Assembly: GCF_013371215.1 (NCBI RefSeq)
Contig: NZ_JABWMH010000001.1
Location: forward strand, 682,001-746,000
Reading direction: 5' to 3'
From: Parasphingorhabdus flavimaris
GTDB lineage: Bacteria; Pseudomonadota; Alphaproteobacteria; Sphingomonadales; Sphingomonadaceae
DNA length: 64,000 nt
The notes beneath the pieces were generated by a model. The model was not told where the DNA came from. It did not search any database and saw only the letters and a list, made by a program, of their open reading frames with translations. Within the stretch, counting starts at the first letter, position 1. Each line of letters starts with the position of its first letter. Shown in pieces: positions 55,070 through 64,000 of this stretch. Both the position numbers and the translations under genes were made by a program.

Positions 55070-55156
55070 TCTTCTCTCTCCCTTGTTTTGTCGGAGAGGG
55101 TTTCGCGCAGGGGCGAGGGGAATGCAATCGGGATTTGTAGCGGGTGGGGGGAGCAC

Positions 55157-55236
55157 TCGTCATCCTGAACTTGGTTCAGGACCTCCCTCGATTGCGCGCT
55201 TGCCTTGCGGGATCCTGAAACAAATTCAGGATGAGA
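55157..55236. repeat. Inverted-repeat element, family A copy 3
   Basis: Left arm gtcatcctgaacttggttc and right arm gatcctgaaacaaattcagg then atgag, about 25 bp apart. It is the last family A copy before the recombinase gene. Confidence 0.8.
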
Positions 55237-55360
55237 GTATCTAACTAAAGTTCTATGAATAAACAACAAAAACATATATAAACATCCACACAGAGCCTAC
55301 ACAGATACGGCAAATCAATGACTTACGCCGCCAATCTGCACGGATTCTGCACAGTGGAGC

Positions 55361-56662
55361 ATGGCGATGGCGTTTATCACCGATAAGGAAGAACTCAAAC
55401 CCGGACTTATTATCTTCCGGCGTGGCGATGTTGCGCATCGCAATTTCTACTGCCGGATAAAGCTGCCGAAGGACGACCGATACAAGACCATTGCATTGGG
55501 GACGCCCGAGCGGGATGCCGCGCGCGACCGCGCTTTCGATCACGACGCCGATGTTCGTTTTCGGCTCAAGCATGACGTGCCGGTATTCAACCGGCCCTTC
55601 CGCCAAGTCGCGGAAGAATTTATCGCTGTACAGCAGCGCCGCGCTGATACGGGCGAGATTTCCCAAGCGCGCGTCAAAAATCTCAAAAATGTGCTGTTGG
55701 GTGCGCTCGACCGCTATGTCGGCAGCACACAGATTCATTTAGTGGGTCAAGACCGCTGGGCAGCATATCCGACTTGGCGGCGCGAAAATGGCAAGGGACG
55801 GCATCGCGCACAGATCAGCGATTCCACTATCAGCTTTGAAATGGGCGCTTTCAACGCGGCCATGAACTTTGCCATTCGCAAACGCTACGTCCCAGCGAAC
55901 CAGCGCTTCGAGAGCAAGCCCAAACTCAAAACCATGCGGCGTGATGAATTCACGCTGGAGGAATATCGCAAGCTGCATACTGCGGGACGCGCTTGGATCA
56001 AAAAGGCCACGACTGCGCCCGGCACATGGTCGCGCACCATGTGCTACAATTTCATGCTCATCATGTGCAACACCGGAATGCGCCCGCCCGAGGCCAAGAA
56101 TTTGCGCTGGCGTGACATCATGCCCGCCAAGGATCGTGACGGCAAAGAAATCATTGTGCTGTTCGTCCAAGGCAAAGCCAAATCACGCAAGCTGGTCGCA
56201 CCCAAGAGTGTGGGCGATTATCTTGATCGCATCCGCGCGATCTCAAAAGCTACGGAACCTGATGATCCGGTATTCACAATCATCAGCGGCAAGCCCGCCA
56301 AATATCTCTTTGAAGATGCCGTTGAGAAATTGCTCACTCACGCGGAACTCAAAATTGGACCAAACGGAACACCGCGTTCAACCTATTGCTTCCGGCACAC
56401 CTATGCCACCTTCCGCCTTAGCGAAGGTGTCGACGTTTATATCCTCGCCGAGCAGATGGGCACTTCGGTCAAAATGATCGAGCAACACTATGGTCATGTG
56501 AATACCATCAAACATGCCGACCGCGTGTTGCAGGGCATGAGCGGATGGGAACCGATGATGACCGATATTGCTGACAGTGACAGCATAGCCCAAGCGTCGG
56601 CGGGGGCGAAGGCCCGGCTCGCAGCAAAGCCCGTTCGCCGGACGCGAACGCGGAGGGTATGA
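55361..56662 (+). CDS. Tyrosine-type site-specific recombinase (integrase)
   Basis: 433 aa. Catalytic set: R241 in NTGMRPPEAKNLRW, a Lys around GKAKSRK (~272), R345-H346 in YCFRHTYATF with Tyr in place of the usual first His of HxxR, and Y377 in IEQHYGHV. An N-terminal SAM-like binding domain (~75-175) precedes it. The C-terminus is basic (VRRTRTRRV). It marks the left side of the AT-richer module that continues with the helicase-methyltransferase genes, and probably moved it. It starts within 125 bp of a family A repeat; no tRNA lies next to it. Confidence 0.92.
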   Translation: MAMAFITDKEELKPGLIIFRRGDVAHRNFYCRIKLPKDDRYKTIALGTPERDAARDRAFDHDADVRFRLKHDVPVFNRPFRQVAEEFIAVQQRRADTGEISQARVKNLKNVLLGALDRYVGSTQIHLVGQDRWAAYPTWRRENGKGRHRAQISDSTISFEMGAFNAAMNFAIRKRYVPANQRFESKPKLKTMRRDEFTLEEYRKLHTAGRAWIKKATTAPGTWSRTMCYNFMLIMCNTGMRPPEAKNLRWRDIMPAKDRDGKEIIVLFVQGKAKSRKLVAPKSVGDYLDRIRAISKATEPDDPVFTIISGKPAKYLFEDAVEKLLTHAELKIGPNGTPRSTYCFRHTYATFRLSEGVDVYILAEQMGTSVKMIEQHYGHVNTIKHADRVLQGMSGWEPMMTDIADSDSIAQASAGAKARLAAKPVRRTRTRRV

Positions 56663-57165: not shown

Positions 57166-60100
57166 ATGCCAAGAATTTTTGATAACATTGACAATACTTT
57201 GCTGCCTGAACTGAGTAAAGTTTTGTCGGTATCTGAACGCGCCGACTTCTGCGTTGGTTACTTCAATCTGCGAGGTTGGCGTCAAATTGATAAATATATT
57301 GAGTCATGGTCGGGCGAAAACGGCAGTGCTTGCAGGTTACTTGTTGGAATGCACAAATCTCCCGAAAGAGGAATTCGTGAAAAACTTGCGAAAGCCTATC
57401 ATGATGAAGGTATAGACAATGCCCGTGCGCTAGAATTAAAAAAAGAATTGGCGGAAGAATTCAGGGCGCAGCTTGCCCTTGGCACTCCAACCAACAATGA
57501 CGAAGCTGGATTGCGACGGCTTGCACGTCAAATCCGCAGTAAGAAGGTTGTCGTCAAACTTTTCCTCCGCCATCCACTTCACGCCAAACTCTATCTTCTT
57601 CATCGTCCCGATCCGGTGAATCCAAAAGTTGGTTTTGTAGGCAGCAGTAATCTTACTTTTGCGGGACTGGCATTTCAGGGCGAATTAAATGTTGATGTTA
57701 TGGATCATGATGCTTGCGACAAGTTGGCAGATTGGTTTGACAATCGCTGGAATGATCGCTGGTGCATCGACATTTCAGATGAATTGGCGACAATTATAGA
57801 AGAAAGCTGGGCAAGTGAGACGCTCGTTCAGCCTTATCACGTCTATTTGAAGATCGCTTATCACCTCGCCCAAGAAGCGCGGCTTGGACAATCGGAGTTT
57901 AAGATACCAGCGATATTCGGCGACAAGTTGTTCGACTTTCAAACCAGCGCCGTAAAGGTGGCTGCGCATCATTTGAATAAACGCGGCGGTGTCGTGATTG
58001 GAGATGTTGTCGGTTTGGGCAAATCTATCATGGCGTCTGCGCTGTTGAAGATTTTGGAGGATAGCGACGGGCGAAGCCTCATACTATGCCCGAAAAATCT
58101 AGTCGAAATGTGGGATGATTATGTCGAAACCTACAACCTGTCGGCCAAGATCGTATCGCTTTCGCGGGTCGAAAGTGAATTGCCGGAACTACGCCGCTAC
58201 CGAACCGTGCTTATCGACGAAAGCCACAATCTCCGCAATCGCGAAGGCAAGCGCTATAAGGTCATTGAGGATTATATCCGTTCGAATGACAGCCAGTGCA
58301 TCCTTCTATCCGCTACACCCTACAATAAATCATTCATTGACTTGTCCTCACAGCTCCGGCTTTTCATTGAGGACGATCAAGATATAGGCGTTCGCCCAGA
58401 AGCGATGATACGGGCCATCGGAGGAGAAACTGAGTTCGTCCGCAAACATCAATGCGCGGTCCGCTCGATTCCGGCTTTCGAAAAAAGTGACCAGACAGAC
58501 GACTGGCGAGAGCTAATGCGTCTTTATATGATCCGCCGGACGCGCGGCTTCATTCTGCAAAATTATGCGCAAACCGATGACACAAACGGTCGCAAGTTCA
58601 TCACCTTCTCCGATGGAACTCGTTCTTACTTTCCGGTGCGCCAGCCCAAATCAGTCAAGTTTGAGATCAATGACGCTGACTCTAATGACCCTTACGCCAA
58701 AGCATATTCAGACGCCGTTGTATCGGCGGTCGATGGACTGACATTGCCGCGTTATGGGCTCGCGAATTATTTGAACCTCGACCCCGCGCATCCGCCGACG
58801 CCTGCCGAAGACACAATCATGGACGGCCTCGGAAGAGCGGGAACCCGGCTTATGGGGTTCTGCAAAACGAACCTTTTCAAAAGGCTCGAAAGCGGTGGCC
58901 CCGCCTTTATCCAATCGTTGCAACGACACATAATGCGCAATCTGGTTTATTTACACGCACTCGAAAATGATCTGCCGGTACCCATCGGATCGCAGGATGC
59001 TGAATTGCTGAATGGATCAGATGAAGACGCTGATTCTGAGGCCGCAGGAACGCTGTTTGCCGATGGAGAATATAGCGATAGCGAAGCCGAAGCCGTTATT
59101 GCAATTAACGAGCTTGAAAAATTACGGGAGCAGGCCGGTGCAATTTACGACGTTTATGCAAATACCAAGAAGCGTCGTTTCAAATGGCTAAACGCCTCGT
59201 TATTCAAACTTACCTTGCAAACCGACCTGCAAGCAGATGTCGATGCGTTACGTGAAGCGCTGCGTATCTGCGGCCCTTGGAATGAGGCGCGCGACACCAA
59301 ACTCAAGGCGTTGATCGACCTTATTTGTGTGGATCACCCAACCGACAAACTACTTATTTTTACTCAGTTCGCAGACACGGCGCGCTACCTCGAAGAGGCG
59401 CTTGTCAAAGCCGGAATCACTTCAATTTCCGCTGTTACCGGGCAATCCGAAAACCCCACCCGACTGGCATGGCGTTTCAGCCCCAGATCGAACAAGAAGG
59501 AAAGATTGGCCCAAGCAGAGGGCGAATTACGCATTCTTGTGGCAACTGACGTATTATCTGAAGGCCAAAATCTTCAAGATTGCGCCACCATCGTCAATTT
59601 CGATTTGCCTTGGGCCATCATCCGGCTAATTCAACGCGCAGGCCGCGTTGATCGCATCGGGCAGCAGGCGGACACGATCAATTGCTATTCTTTCCTGCCC
59701 GCCGACGGTGTTGAGCGGATTATTCGCCTTCGGGCGCGAGTACGAGAACGATTAAAAGAAAATCAGGAAGTAGTGGGTTCTGACGAGGCCTTCTTTGAAG
59801 GCGATAGCAAAGACAACCCAATACAAGACCTTTACAGCGAAAAATCCGGTATTCTTGACGGAGATGACGATGGTGAGGTTGATCTCGCCTCACACGCTTT
59901 TCAGATTTGGCAGAACGCCATAAAAGCAAATCCAAAACTTAATAAACTTGTCGAGGACATGCCAGAAGTTGTTTTCGCTACCAAGGCAACCCCGCCCGTG
60001 CAAAATGCGAAAGAGGGCGCGCTTGTCTATATCCGCACCCCTGACGACAATGACTCATTGGCATGGATGGACCGGGAAGGCGAAATTCTTACCCAATCCC

Positions 60101-60555
60101 CACTTGCGATTCTTCGTGCTGCCGAGTGCACCCCTCAAGAACCAGCGCTTGAGCGCACCGACTTTCACCATGAAATTGTAGCCAAGGGCGTAGAGTATTT
60201 GATGAAGGAGGAGCGCACGACGCACGGTGCGCTTGGGCGACCATCGGGTGCGCGCTTTAAAACCTATGACCGTCTGAAACGATTCCTTGAAAATCAGGGG
60301 AACGAACGAACTTTGTTCGTGACCGATCACTTCGTTCGTGATGTCGAAAAGGCGATGGCCGATATTTACGAAACACCGCTGTTTCAATCCACTATTGACG
60401 CCCTCAATCGGCAACTGAAAACCGGAATCAGTGACTTTAAACTGGCGGAAATGGTTATCGCTTTTCGCGCTGACGGGAGGTTGAGCATGAAGCAAGACAA
60501 GGACGACAAGCACAATGAAATGCGGATTATCTGTTCAATGGGGTTGAAGGGCTGA
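57166..60555 (+). CDS. PLD-nuclease/SNF2-helicase fusion protein (putative defence)
   Basis: 1129 aa. N-terminal phospholipase-D-like nuclease domain (~1-200): HAKLYLLHR (HxK, ~139) and VGSSNLTFAG (GSSN, ~158). Then a SNF2/superfamily-2 helicase: Walker A GDVVGLGKSIMA (~275-286), LIDESHNLRN (motif II, ~348), LLSATPYN (motif III, ~380), IFTQFADTARYLEEAL (~728) and QRAGRVDRIGQQ (motif VI, ~823-834). C-terminal ~200 residues unassigned. It is followed by a methyltransferase gene two bases later. Resembles restriction-like or DISARM DrmD-like helicases, but the N-terminal nuclease is a separate feature. Confidence 0.92.
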   Translation: MPRIFDNIDNTLLPELSKVLSVSERADFCVGYFNLRGWRQIDKYIESWSGENGSACRLLVGMHKSPERGIREKLAKAYHDEGIDNARALELKKELAEEFRAQLALGTPTNNDEAGLRRLARQIRSKKVVVKLFLRHPLHAKLYLLHRPDPVNPKVGFVGSSNLTFAGLAFQGELNVDVMDHDACDKLADWFDNRWNDRWCIDISDELATIIEESWASETLVQPYHVYLKIAYHLAQEARLGQSEFKIPAIFGDKLFDFQTSAVKVAAHHLNKRGGVVIGDVVGLGKSIMASALLKILEDSDGRSLILCPKNLVEMWDDYVETYNLSAKIVSLSRVESELPELRRYRTVLIDESHNLRNREGKRYKVIEDYIRSNDSQCILLSATPYNKSFIDLSSQLRLFIEDDQDIGVRPEAMIRAIGGETEFVRKHQCAVRSIPAFEKSDQTDDWRELMRLYMIRRTRGFILQNYAQTDDTNGRKFITFSDGTRSYFPVRQPKSVKFEINDADSNDPYAKAYSDAVVSAVDGLTLPRYGLANYLNLDPAHPPTPAEDTIMDGLGRAGTRLMGFCKTNLFKRLESGGPAFIQSLQRHIMRNLVYLHALENDLPVPIGSQDAELLNGSDEDADSEAAGTLFADGEYSDSEAEAVIAINELEKLREQAGAIYDVYANTKKRRFKWLNASLFKLTLQTDLQADVDALREALRICGPWNEARDTKLKALIDLICVDHPTDKLLIFTQFADTARYLEEALVKAGITSISAVTGQSENPTRLAWRFSPRSNKKERLAQAEGELRILVATDVLSEGQNLQDCATIVNFDLPWAIIRLIQRAGRVDRIGQQADTINCYSFLPADGVERIIRLRARVRERLKENQEVVGSDEAFFEGDSKDNPIQDLYSEKSGILDGDDDGEVDLASHAFQIWQNAIKANPKLNKLVEDMPEVVFATKATPPVQNAKEGALVYIRTPDDNDSLAWMDREGEILTQSPLAILRAAECTPQEPALERTDFHHEIVAKGVEYLMKEERTTHGALGRPSGARFKTYDRLKRFLENQGNERTLFVTDHFVRDVEKAMADIYETPLFQSTIDALNRQLKTGISDFKLAEMVIAFRADGRLSMKQDKDDKHNEMRIICSMGLKG

Positions 60556-60557
60556 AT

Positions 60558-63500
60558 ATGGCAATCGACAAGGCTCGCGCATCAACCCATCTAAAGGCGT
60601 TTGATTTTACAACGCTGTTCATTGACGAACTTGGCTGGGATCGCCCCGTTTCACGCCAAGCAGAAACGGTTGATGCTGCCGGTGAGCAATATACGTTGAA
60701 CCCCGTTGCCGAAAAACGTGGCGTCCGCATATTTCATTGCGCGGCAATCCCCGAACGCAATACGCGCCAGCGGATAGAACGCGAGATAACCAAGCTCACC
60801 TTTGAGCATTTAATAATTTTTACCGACCCCGCGCAGACCAAGCAGATTTGGCAATGGGTCGCTCGCGAAAAAGGCAAGCCCGCTGCTTTCCGAGAACATA
60901 CTTGGCTTGCCAGCAGCGCGCCAGATGCACTAATTCAAAAGCTCGACCACATCGCTTTCGCACTTAGTGAGGAGGAGGGCTTAACCCTCGCTGGAACCAC
61001 ATTGCGAATGCGCGATGCTTTTGACCGCGAGAAAATAACCAAACGTTTTTATGAAGCGTTCAAACAGCAGCATGACCAATTCCTTGGCTTCATTGAAGGG
61101 CTGGCCAGTGCGACCGACCGGCAATGGTATGCCTCATTAATGCTCAACCGGTTGATGTTTGTTTATTTCATTCAGAAAAAGCGGTTTCTGGACGGCGATA
61201 TTGATTATCTGAAAAACCGGCTGGAACAGGTACGGGCTGCGAAAGGGGCAGATCAGTTCCACAGTTTCTACCGGGTATTCCTGCTGAAACTGTTTCACGG
61301 CGGATTGGCAACGGCGGTGGACGCACGGGATCCTGATACGGCGGCGATGCTGGGCAGTATTCCCTATCTCAATGGCGGTCTGTTTGAACCCCATGCGTTG
61401 GAAGCGGACGGCAACGACATTCAAATCGCGGATGCCGCGTTTGAAAGTGTATTCAATTTCTTCGATCAATATGAATGGACGCTCGACACCCGGCCTATCG
61501 AGCGGGTCGATGGCAAAGAGATCAACCCCGACGTTCTCGGCCATATATTTGAAAAATATATCAATCAGAAGCAGATGGGAGCCTACTACACCAAGGAAGA
61601 CATCACCGATTATATTACCAAAAACACCGTTGTTCCTTGGTTGTTTCAGTCCGCAACCGGCCATGACAAAGTTGCGTTTGAACCGCACGGCTATGTCTGG
61701 CGGTTGCTGTCGGAAAATCCCGATGCCTATATCTATAAATCGGTGCGCTACGGCACTGAAACTGCCCTTCCCGACAACATTGCGGCGGGCATAGATGATG
61801 TCGCGCAACGCACCGACTGGAACAAAACCGCACCGCGAGAATTCGGTCTACCTACTGAAATCTGGCGGGAGGTTGTGGCGCGGCGCGAACGGTATGAAAC
61901 CATTCGCGCCAAGGCGGCAGGAGGCGAGATAACGCGGATTGACAACTTCATTACCCACAATCTCGATATCCGCCAGTTTGCACGCGACGTAATCCAATAT
62001 GCCGAAAGCCCCGATCTGGTGCGGGCATTTTGGAAAGGCATATCGGCGATCAAGATATTGGACCCCGCCTGTGGTTCCGGCGCGTTCCTTTTTGCGGCAC
62101 TCAATATCCAATATGACCTTTATGACGCTTGCCTTGAGCGTATGGAGCAATTCGTTGCCTCTGCCCCAGATAGCGGCGGCGGGCGTGGTCAGCTTTATTC
62201 AGATTTCCGCGACGTGTTAAGACAAATTGCGCAGCATCCCAACCGAGACTATTTCATCTATAAATCGATTATCATCTCCAACCTCTATGGCGTCGATATT
62301 ATGGACGAGGCCGTGGAGATTTGTAAGCTGCGTCTGTTCCTGAAACTGGCGTCACAGCTTGAAAGCCCGGACCAGATCGAACCGCTGCCCGATATTGATT
62401 TCAACATTCGAGCTGGCAATACGCTCATTGGCTATACTTCCATTGCCGACGTGAAAAAGGCAACTGAAGCCAATGGCTTAGATTTCGATGACCGCGCCGG
62501 CAAGATTGAAGCAGCAGCGCAAGACCTAGACCAAGCTTTCCGCTTATTCCGTGAACAGCAAACCAAATTGCATGGCGGAATAGAAGTCGATCATAAATCC
62601 GAATTGCGTAGCCGATTGACCGCATTGGAAAGCCAGCTCGACCGTTTTCTCGCTAAAGACTATGGCGTCGATGTCCCTGAAATCGGAGATGATGATCTTG
62701 CCGCCTCTGCAAATTTTCAGATTTGGAAAAATAGCCACAAGCCTTTCCATTGGCTGATTGAGTTTTACGGAATCATCAACGGCGGTGGGTTTGATGTGAT
62801 CGTAGGAAACCCGCCATACATCGAGCTATCAAAGGTCAAAGCCGACTACATTCCAAGAGGCTACAAAACGGCCTCTGGCGGAAATCTTTACGGGTTATTT
62901 GTCGAACATGAACACAAAATTGCATCTGCAAATACTTATACAGGTCTAATTGTGCCGATCTCAGTCATGTGCACGAAACGAACGACAGATGTGCAGCGTC
63001 AACTGTTGGCTAACTCCCAAGTATGGGCTTCAACTTTCGACGTCTTCCCCGCCCGCGCATTTGAAGGCGCAGCCCAGCGTGTTAGTATTGTGATCGCTGC
63101 CAACCCTTCTGGAATTCAACCTACCCTTCATACGACACGCTACCTCCGTTGGTTTCAGCAAGAACGTCCTTCTCTGATTGAAGGACTCGAATATGCGGAA
63201 ACCTCTGGTCTAGGAAAACTGGGTTGGTTGCCACGGCTCGGTTCATCGCGTGAAACTGCTATCTTGAAGCGTCTAACTGGCAAGCCATTGTCAGTTCAAA
63301 CAACGCGTGCAGGTGGCACCCCAATCTATGCTCATCGGATCGTCAATAATTTTGTAAAAGCTGTTAAATTTCCTCCCTACTTCAAGAAAGCCGACGGAAC
63401 CATCACAACTTCGGACGACTTCAAGATTCTTGGCCTAGATAAAACGATGATTGACCCTTTCGTTGCCGTCCTAAATTCGTCCTTATTTTATTGGTACTGG

Positions 63501-63839
63501 CGCGCACATGGCGACGGGTTTCATTGCGGGTATCGTGATATCGGGATGTTTCCATTCTCGCTGGATAAAATAGTTGAACCATTACGTTCAGAAATTGATC
63601 GACTGTCCGATGAGCTGAACGCCAGTCTTCGCGACAATTCGGAAATTCGCACAAGGAATCAAAAGGCAACTGGCCTGATACATTTACAAACTTTCTTCGT
63701 TGGAAAATCGAAAGATATTATTGATCAGATAGACATGGTACTTACAAAAATTGTTGGGATGTCGCACGAAGATACAGATTTCATCATCAACTACGATATC
63801 AAATACCGCATGGGCGCACATGAAGATGACCCCCATTGA
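60558..63839 (+). CDS. Adenine-specific DNA methyltransferase, Eco57I/PglX class
   Basis: 1093 aa. Amino-methyltransferase motifs: DPACGSGAFLFAAL (motif I, SAM binding, ~498-511) and GNPPYIELSKV (motif IV, catalytic NPPY, ~749-755), with the long N-terminal helical part and C-terminal target-recognition-like region usual in large Type IIG/BREX PglX/DISARM DrmMI enzymes. HIFEKYINQKQMGAYYTKED (~335) is the Eco57I-type N-terminal signature. It probably N6-methylates adenine of host DNA. No separate specificity subunit is visible. Two bases after the helicase gene and overlapping the next gene. Confidence 0.93.
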   Translation: MAIDKARASTHLKAFDFTTLFIDELGWDRPVSRQAETVDAAGEQYTLNPVAEKRGVRIFHCAAIPERNTRQRIEREITKLTFEHLIIFTDPAQTKQIWQWVAREKGKPAAFREHTWLASSAPDALIQKLDHIAFALSEEEGLTLAGTTLRMRDAFDREKITKRFYEAFKQQHDQFLGFIEGLASATDRQWYASLMLNRLMFVYFIQKKRFLDGDIDYLKNRLEQVRAAKGADQFHSFYRVFLLKLFHGGLATAVDARDPDTAAMLGSIPYLNGGLFEPHALEADGNDIQIADAAFESVFNFFDQYEWTLDTRPIERVDGKEINPDVLGHIFEKYINQKQMGAYYTKEDITDYITKNTVVPWLFQSATGHDKVAFEPHGYVWRLLSENPDAYIYKSVRYGTETALPDNIAAGIDDVAQRTDWNKTAPREFGLPTEIWREVVARRERYETIRAKAAGGEITRIDNFITHNLDIRQFARDVIQYAESPDLVRAFWKGISAIKILDPACGSGAFLFAALNIQYDLYDACLERMEQFVASAPDSGGGRGQLYSDFRDVLRQIAQHPNRDYFIYKSIIISNLYGVDIMDEAVEICKLRLFLKLASQLESPDQIEPLPDIDFNIRAGNTLIGYTSIADVKKATEANGLDFDDRAGKIEAAAQDLDQAFRLFREQQTKLHGGIEVDHKSELRSRLTALESQLDRFLAKDYGVDVPEIGDDDLAASANFQIWKNSHKPFHWLIEFYGIINGGGFDVIVGNPPYIELSKVKADYIPRGYKTASGGNLYGLFVEHEHKIASANTYTGLIVPISVMCTKRTTDVQRQLLANSQVWASTFDVFPARAFEGAAQRVSIVIAANPSGIQPTLHTTRYLRWFQQERPSLIEGLEYAETSGLGKLGWLPRLGSSRETAILKRLTGKPLSVQTTRAGGTPIYAHRIVNNFVKAVKFPPYFKKADGTITTSDDFKILGLDKTMIDPFVAVLNSSLFYWYWRAHGDGFHCGYRDIGMFPFSLDKIVEPLRSEIDRLSDELNASLRDNSEIRTRNQKATGLIHLQTFFVGKSKDIIDQIDMVLTKIVGMSHEDTDFIINYDIKYRMGAHEDDPH

Positions 63840-64000
63840 TCCGCCGTCCCACCTTGGCAGCGCCGTATTGCTCGCGCGCCAACCCATCGCCTTCTTTTGC
63901 TCGCAGTCCTGTCCCGGCGATGTGATCCTAAAAGCGCAAGATTGGGCCAATGCGCGCGGCCCGAATAATCCGCCGGTGATTAGCGGTTTTCACACCCAAG
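63826..64000 (+). CDS. DprA/SLOG-like nucleotide-binding protein, 5' part
   Basis: 58 codons visible; the gene runs off the right edge. It starts 14 bp before the methyltransferase stop in another frame. The peptide has AFFCSQSCPGDVILKAQDWA and NNPPVISGFHTQ, like the core strands and GxH loop of the DprA/SLOG fold (FCS...CPG...VISGFH). Such proteins bind nucleotides or single-stranded DNA and some accompany defence systems. The assignment is from a fragment. Confidence 0.55.
   Translation, partial: MTPIDPPSHLGSAVLLARQPIAFFCSQSCPGDVILKAQDWANARGPNNPPVISGFHTQ

Follow-up and report, generated by a model that had tools for sequence, protein, structure and literature searches.

The operon and its leading genes

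The window analysed here is a 64,000-nucleotide stretch of the Parasphingorhabdus flavimaris genome (3.35 Mb in 8 contigs), covering positions 682001-746000 of contig C1. At its right-hand end, an initial annotation made from the letters had proposed a defence cassette of three tightly coupled genes, here called A, B and C, that encode a nuclease-helicase fusion, an adenine methyltransferase and a DprA-like protein. We confirmed this layout on the + strand. A and B are separated by 2 bp, and B overlaps C by 14 bp if C starts at the ATG at 63826, or by 20 bp if it starts at the in-frame ATG at 63820. The suggestion that the system might run past the edge of the window also proved correct: C ends at 64377 (window numbering continued beyond its edge) and is followed by two more genes, D and E. 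C and D overlap by 4 bases and D and E by 8 bases, so the operon consists of five touching or overlapping genes.

Gene A (57166-60555, + strand; 1129 amino acids) encodes a phospholipase D (PLD) nuclease joined to a Snf2-type superfamily 2 (SF2) helicase. Pfam places PLDc_2 at residues 24-195, followed by the helicase domains, as the initial annotation had read them. The PLD part has a single HxK set, comprising H139, K141, N162 (within GSSN, 159-162) and E173. The HxK, GSSN and E set is kept in 20 of 21 A homologues, the exception being a copy in Dolichospermum. Small variants aside, the homologues retain helicase motifs I, II, III and VI, except that a truncated Leptolyngbya copy is missing motif VI. 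With the P. flavimaris genome included in each count, matches to A at E<=1e-100 turn up in 6 of the 396 genomes searched in the order, in 3 of 385 in the class and in 4 of 398 in the phylum. PADLOC labels A as C3a139 (HKD+Snf2), a label for which we traced no paper.

Gene B (60558-63839, + strand; 1093 amino acids) is an Eco57I/PglX-class adenine methyltransferase according to Pfam, PADLOC and alignments. Its Pfam matches at E<=0.001 are Eco57I, MmeI_Mtase and DUF7814; they include neither DUF1156 nor any nuclease. The motifs DPACGSGAFL and NPPY are each exact in 38 of 40 homologues, with point variants in the others. Mean pairwise identity is 0.70 for residues 1-160 (hereafter the N-domain), 0.79 for 161-490 and 0.76 for 491-760, which hold the methyltransferase. 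It falls to 0.32 for 761-1000 and 0.33 for 1001-1093. The drop over residues 761-1093 is the pattern of a swapped or diversified specificity domain, and we treat this hypervariable C-terminal half as the target recognition domain (TRD). B has at least 8000 homologues, and the named ones include proteins of Sphingobium, Sphingopyxis, Novosphingobium and Blastomonas. Its nearest relatives of solved structure, by profile and Foldseek searches, are BrxX/PglX and CamA. The type ISP enzymes LlaBIII and LlaGI (PDB 4xqk and 5ffj are among the matches) stand further down the Foldseek list, in which whole-chain fits have TM-scores of at most 0.23 of the query. The Synechocystis gene slr6095 was considered as a counterpart of B and dropped, since its product is M.Ssp6803V, the M subunit of a type I system (PMC6560206). 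A search of the open-access literature found no paper on 'slr6050'.

The A-B pair and its shared N-domain

A and B form a conserved pair, which is a wider unit than A-B-C. We examined 21 loci with A, namely that of P. flavimaris, 8 from other genomes and 12 of the 30 plasmid records that contain A. The N-domain of B is present in 19 of these loci, including those of cyanobacterial, Pelobacter and actinobacterial plasmids; in the remaining two, the contig ends or A is truncated. The A and B frames lie on the same strand in 18 of the 19 loci, 15 of them within 133 bases of each other or overlapping. In the nineteenth, from Gordonia, A and B adjoin according to the annotation.

The association is also visible from the side of B. 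Among the best 60 of 63 plasmid records that match residues 1-501 of B, the match begins at or before residue 16 in 19 records, 18 of which belong to the 30 plasmid records with A. The match begins at or after residue 56 in the other 41 records, of which 4 have A. The N-domain is thus the part of B that is linked to A.

This domain occurs on two types of methyltransferase. In Rhodococcus ruber, Rhodococcus opacus and Gordonia, it precedes an MmeI-like body (MmeI_hel, Mtase, TRD and C) and occupies the position of the MmeI nuclease domain. None of the three proteins matches MmeI_N at E<=0.001. Below this threshold there are matches to the tail of MmeI_N in R. opacus (E 0.049) and to PDDEXK_5 in Gordonia (E 0.058), and so the N-domain may derive from a nuclease. 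Across the 19 loci, its only invariant residues are M1, L20, F21 and W98, and no set of acids and lysine is conserved.

In a Dolichospermum plasmid (L045:7001-11209), the copy of A that lacks HxK stands with a 285-residue remnant of B that consists of the N-domain only. These two copies represent joint decay. A VapC toxin gene and a small partner gene occur in Synechocystis and Picosynechococcus plasmids (L024, L043, L044 and L065). The VapC pair lies between A and B in three of these cyanobacterial loci and immediately before B in the fourth, placed as though guarding the restriction pair.

Gene C, the cargo genes and the element

Gene C (63820, or the alternative ATG at 63826, to 64377; L008:10820-11377; + strand; 185 amino acids) resembles DprA weakly by sequence (PF02481, E 7e-4, 19 bits, below the cut-off of 29.6 bits) and clearly by predicted structure, which has the DprA Rossmann fold. 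Judged from this model, C is a stand-alone DprA fold without the extra domains of DprA. A profile search gave no relative in the PDB (the best match, E 0.71, is unrelated), and C was placed by structure comparison only. The host has its own DprA (C2:658583-659194, 247 bits, in a frame of 372 amino acids). With hhalign, the C profile and this protein share an alignment of only 65 columns, which starts at the RNR motif and has a probability of 10%.

Searching the order with a single sequence recovered C in P. flavimaris and three other genomes. The A-B-C order, which the initial annotation had proposed to look for elsewhere, occurs in all four, more than chance would give. Moreover, 26 of 119 C clusters lie on contigs equal in size to that of a listed B cluster, versus 0.26 expected by chance. 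C was not found in genomes G063, G424, G595, G1056 and G074 in a search that had no positive control, nor in plasmids, phage records or viral contigs. The viral-contig scans, which also did not find A, rest on two short patterns for C and six for A, and thus show little. Among the 21 A loci, C is present in 4 and was not found in 17, one of which ends inside A. The idea of a three-gene, restriction-like system is thus partly supported: a restriction-like nature and a DprA-like third gene agree with our results, but the wider unit is A and B.

The genes behind C vary. Gene D (64374-65129; L008:11374-12129), which overlaps both C and E, encodes an acidic protein (251 amino acids, pI 4.4) that Pfam, NCBIfam and PADLOC assign to no family. 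In Sinorhizobium, relatives of D occur close to different restriction systems: in S. meliloti the neighbour is a type I system, and in S. americanum D follows a methyltransferase-helicase-GIY-YIG set. Contigs of other alphaproteobacteria have it in solitary or broken copies. In stretches of 4-21 kb around 11 D relatives, none of A, B, C and E has a close relative, with matches to A, B and E considered from 60 bits. The one exception is in L010, where A has a generic helicase match (34%, 88.6 bits). D is therefore outside the unit. A D-like stretch of 44 amino acids lies behind B in L040. Gene E (65122-68868; L008:12122-15868; 1248 amino acids) encodes a RecD2-like superfamily 1 helicase (PADLOC PDC-S68, 1555 bits), of which a C-terminal stretch is weakly PD-(D/E)XK-like (HEAT_CxxC_PDDEXK, E 0.007). 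E is separate from A-C in the four other loci opened (L028, L029, L032 and L033).

What follows C differs among the three relatives: GmrSD_N together with an AlbA_2 gene in L034, an HATPase gene in L035, and in L036 a UvrD-like helicase plus GmrSD_N-HNH. AAA_21 and DUF4276 genes lie directly behind B in Anabaena (L025:7503-9301) and Calothrix (L064:9098-10908). D and E are thus variable, interchangeable cargo. Many genes occupy the slot behind B, and C alone recurs in this branch. In another genome of the class, the third gene of an A-B locus (L030:8603-9478) encodes 291 amino acids with a weak PLDc_2 match (25.6 bits, below the cut-off).

The operon belongs to a mobile element with a recombinase. 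A tyrosine recombinase of 433 amino acids (55361-56662, + strand; Pfam Phage_integrase, 40.3 bits), noted already in the initial annotation, lies at the left end. Two direct copies of the 10-bp sequence TTCAGGATGA mark the boundaries, the left one at 55225-55234 (no strand assigned), recognised from the repeat and an empty site, and the right one beyond the window at C1:765656-765665 (83656-83665 in window numbering). From the end of the left repeat to the end of the right one (window position 55235 to C1:765665), the element measures 28,431 bp. Its G+C content is 52.4%, versus 59.2% in window positions 1-55234 and 59.7% in the 9.3 kb to its right. The count noted earlier (24 G/C among the 60 bases at 57181-57240) was confirmed.

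The empty site is in G634, a genome of the same genus, in which the flanks of the element adjoin with TTCAGGATGA between them (C1:736637-737128 maps to L062 1416-1908, and 765654-766432 to L062 1988-2777). In G725, also of this genus, pieces of the flanks occur in a different order, so there is no clean empty site. No A was detected in five genomes of this genus (G634, G700, G725, G736 and G768). A dispersed, partly palindromic repeat of ~80 bp, with many copies in G634 and G725, lies at 55154-55238. This genus repeat is the insertion target of the element. The 10-bp TTCAGGATGA may consequently belong to the repeat, and is not proven to be an att core.

Besides the recombinase and A-E, the element contains a DUF3768 gene, a NERD-UvrD helicase gene, a Fic gene (SoFic, 110 bits by PADLOC, scanned part only) and an HATPase gene. 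By eye and from the PADLOC scan only, it also has a putative conjugation coupling protein and a putative relaxase with a RecD-like helicase part. The NERD-UvrD helicase (L008:17462-19321; PADLOC C3a187, 494 bits) and the HATPase protein (L009:7475-9421), which has a weak HSDR_N-like stretch, are defence-like.

Proposed mechanism, alternatives and known systems

We think it somewhat probable that A and B together make up a restriction-modification (RM) system that is ATP-dependent and sequence-specific, each supplying one subunit. This reading is based on the conserved methyltransferase and nuclease-motor motifs, the near-constant pairing and the hypervariable TRD. BfiI-type enzymes, which have one HxK set per chain, act as dimers. 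We infer that the two proteins form a complex in which B would recognise a site by means of its exchangeable C-terminal half and label self DNA by methylating an adenine in that site. When the DNA is unmethylated, the N-domain, which stands in the position of a type IIG nuclease and has no canonical PD-(D/E)XK site, would hold A. Such a docking role is suggested by its linkage to A and by the change of chassis between methyltransferase types. A would then translocate by its Snf2 motor and cut by its PLD domain. With one HxK set per A chain, cutting would require two A chains to meet through the convergence of two motors, much as type ISP enzymes cut by translocation and collision.

C might be a control subunit in one branch. 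It would most likely bind single-stranded or branched DNA exposed by the motors and by replication, and license or restrain A. DprA binds single-stranded DNA and assists RecA (PMC12386762), and RqlI, which has a DprA-homologous region, interacts physically with the helicase RqlH and restrains it (PMC4670107). Of the whole mechanism, the part assigned to C is the least secure.

A broader and rather doubtful proposal is that of a separate RM class, in which the N-domain is an adaptor that makes Eco57I/PglX-type and MmeI-type chains targeting subunits of one ATP-driven PLD nuclease, with the DprA-like protein as a gate that senses single-stranded or forked DNA. If so, restriction would be coupled to a check of DNA structure as well as of methylation. 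On the two-subunit reading itself, the N-domain that these chains share would serve as a portable adaptor with which one nuclease can be re-targeted. C would be the first DprA-like partner of an RM core, as far as our searches found.

Some observations weigh against the two-subunit RM system or the part given to C in it. In the Calothrix record AP018277, the sole exception among the 19 plasmid matches, the N-domain of B occurs without A, and a D5-type replication helicase lies upstream. In a thirteenth plasmid, NZ_CP063660, a shortened A is on the opposite strand, ~3 kb from B. C is not essential to A-B generally, given the 17 loci in which it was not found. Arg52 of HpDprA matters for the binding of single-stranded DNA, and the corresponding VGxR arginine site, located by eye, has Q in the P. 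flavimaris C and Q, R, K or N in its relatives; binding of single-stranded DNA by C is therefore uncertain. The analogy to RqlH is weakened as well, because the toxicity of RqlH resides in its phosphoribosyltransferase (PRTase) domain (PMC4670107), and no PRTase is among the 6 Pfam matches of A.

Further points of this kind concern B itself, which could be a self-sufficient type IIG RM enzyme, with A an independent PLD-helicase defence gene beside it. B has a methyltransferase and a TRD in a single chain, and the PADLOC model REase_MTase_IIG (PDLC03628) covers it end to end with 998 bits. Among 40 close relatives of B, E24, E36, K53, E83 and D90 of the N-domain are invariant, and the active site of this branch may therefore be of an unusual kind. 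In the predicted model of B, the strands and helices of the N-domain are ordered like those of PD-(D/E)XK folds; at the low confidence of this model (pLDDT 71.5, pTM 0.40), the nuclease-like topology is merely suggestive. However, no set of acids and lysine is kept over the 19 loci, and the N-domain tracks A across phyla and two methyltransferase types. We therefore regard a self-sufficient B as unlikely.

A slightly less likely explanation is that A-B is a reduced Type-2 BREX-related (BR) system that has lost its ATPase and DUF3780, kept its HKD-Snf2 helicase and changed its methyltransferase. Descent of this kind could be compatible with the RM reading that we favour. Type-2 BR systems combine the same plan of helicase with an N6-methyltransferase around DUF499 (PMC12839542). 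However, DUF499 has no match in the P. flavimaris genome, while the positive control in Thermotoga maritima was matched, and B has no Pfam match to DUF1156 at E<=0.001. DUF3780 is not among the listed Pfam matches of A-E, the recombinase and three neighbours; no genome-wide search for it was made.

It is quite improbable that C instead belongs with D and E in a PsyrTA-like system, as the antitoxin to a helicase toxin E, parked behind A-B. C does match PsyrA of PADLOC (E 2.6e-10), and the RecD-like helicase gene E overlaps D, which in turn overlaps C. However, the three other genomes with C lack D and E behind it, A and B precede C every time, and no C was found in the four E loci opened elsewhere. 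PsyrTA/RqlHI systems also differ in that RqlH carries the toxic PRTase. ShosT carries a PRTase domain, and none is among the best 25 of 30 Pfam matches of E.

We give very little credence to an edge fragment of DISARM or BREX: the helicase matches DrmD (110 bits) and the methyltransferase matches DrmMI and PglX, but the scores are far under the curated cut-offs where these are given (A reaches 128.7 bits of 610 for DrmD, and B 78.7 bits of 500 for BREX-1 PglX, with other BREX models lower), and the sequence to the right of 64000 contradicts it, the next genes being D, E, DUF3768, NERD-UvrD, Fic and mobilisation-like ones. As the initial annotation had observed for the window, no drmA, drmB or drmC comes next among the scanned proteins of the element, and neither does a BREX set. 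No drmB or drmC match is listed by PADLOC, and DrmA appears only as a helicase-domain match of A to one model (48 bits). These statements cover the best 25 of 41 PADLOC matches for A, 25 of 45 for B and 25 of 31 for E; small or split open reading frames such as the N-part of Fic, L009:9735-10157 and L009:3223-3618 were outside the scan.

The likeness to DISARM class 1 that was first suggested gives way to another, since the closest published logic that we found is that of Type-2 BR. An N-terminal HKD/PLD domain on an Snf2 helicase, an arrangement also present in A, is the effector there and an N6-adenine methyltransferase is the self-marker (PMC12839542). Type-2 BR systems differ in having a DUF499 ATPase core, a DUF1156-type methyltransferase and a DUF3780 gene. 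By contrast, A-B lacks DUF499, and B is of the Eco57I/PglX type, or of the MmeI type in the actinobacterial relatives.

PbeABCD and related CxC ABC-ATPase systems also contain a fusion of an HKD endoDNase with an SF2 helicase, some with a DNA methylase beside it, but they have a CxC ABC-ATPase core, DndE and a small disordered protein (PMC10853773). A matches PbeA with only 42 bits, and no PbeB-D match is listed among the scanned proteins of the element. SauUSI-type restriction, which is single-gene and modification-dependent, likewise uses a PLD domain fused to an SF2 helicase, whereas A has a near-constant methyltransferase partner.

We found no description of the A-B or A-B-C arrangement in the open-access literature, a search that did not extend to supplements or REBASE. 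Within that literature, we have not seen a DUF499-free pair, an N-domain shared by two methyltransferase types or a DprA-like partner.

Type ISP enzymes such as LlaGI and LlaBIII have the same set of activities, namely a nuclease, a motor, a gamma-type methyltransferase and a TRD. However, they carry it in a single polypeptide rather than in two genes, and their nuclease is of the Mrr type rather than PLD (PMC3874165). Type IIG and MmeI enzymes share the methyltransferase-TRD plan of B, and the three actinobacterial partners of A are MmeI-like. A-B differs from them in its separate gene for an ATP-dependent nuclease and in the N-domain of B, which has no recognised nuclease. Standard tools would label such a putative split system as an ordinary one-protein restriction enzyme. 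If the two-subunit reading is correct, many of the B homologues that are named type IIG by the PADLOC model may depend on a neighbouring helicase to restrict.

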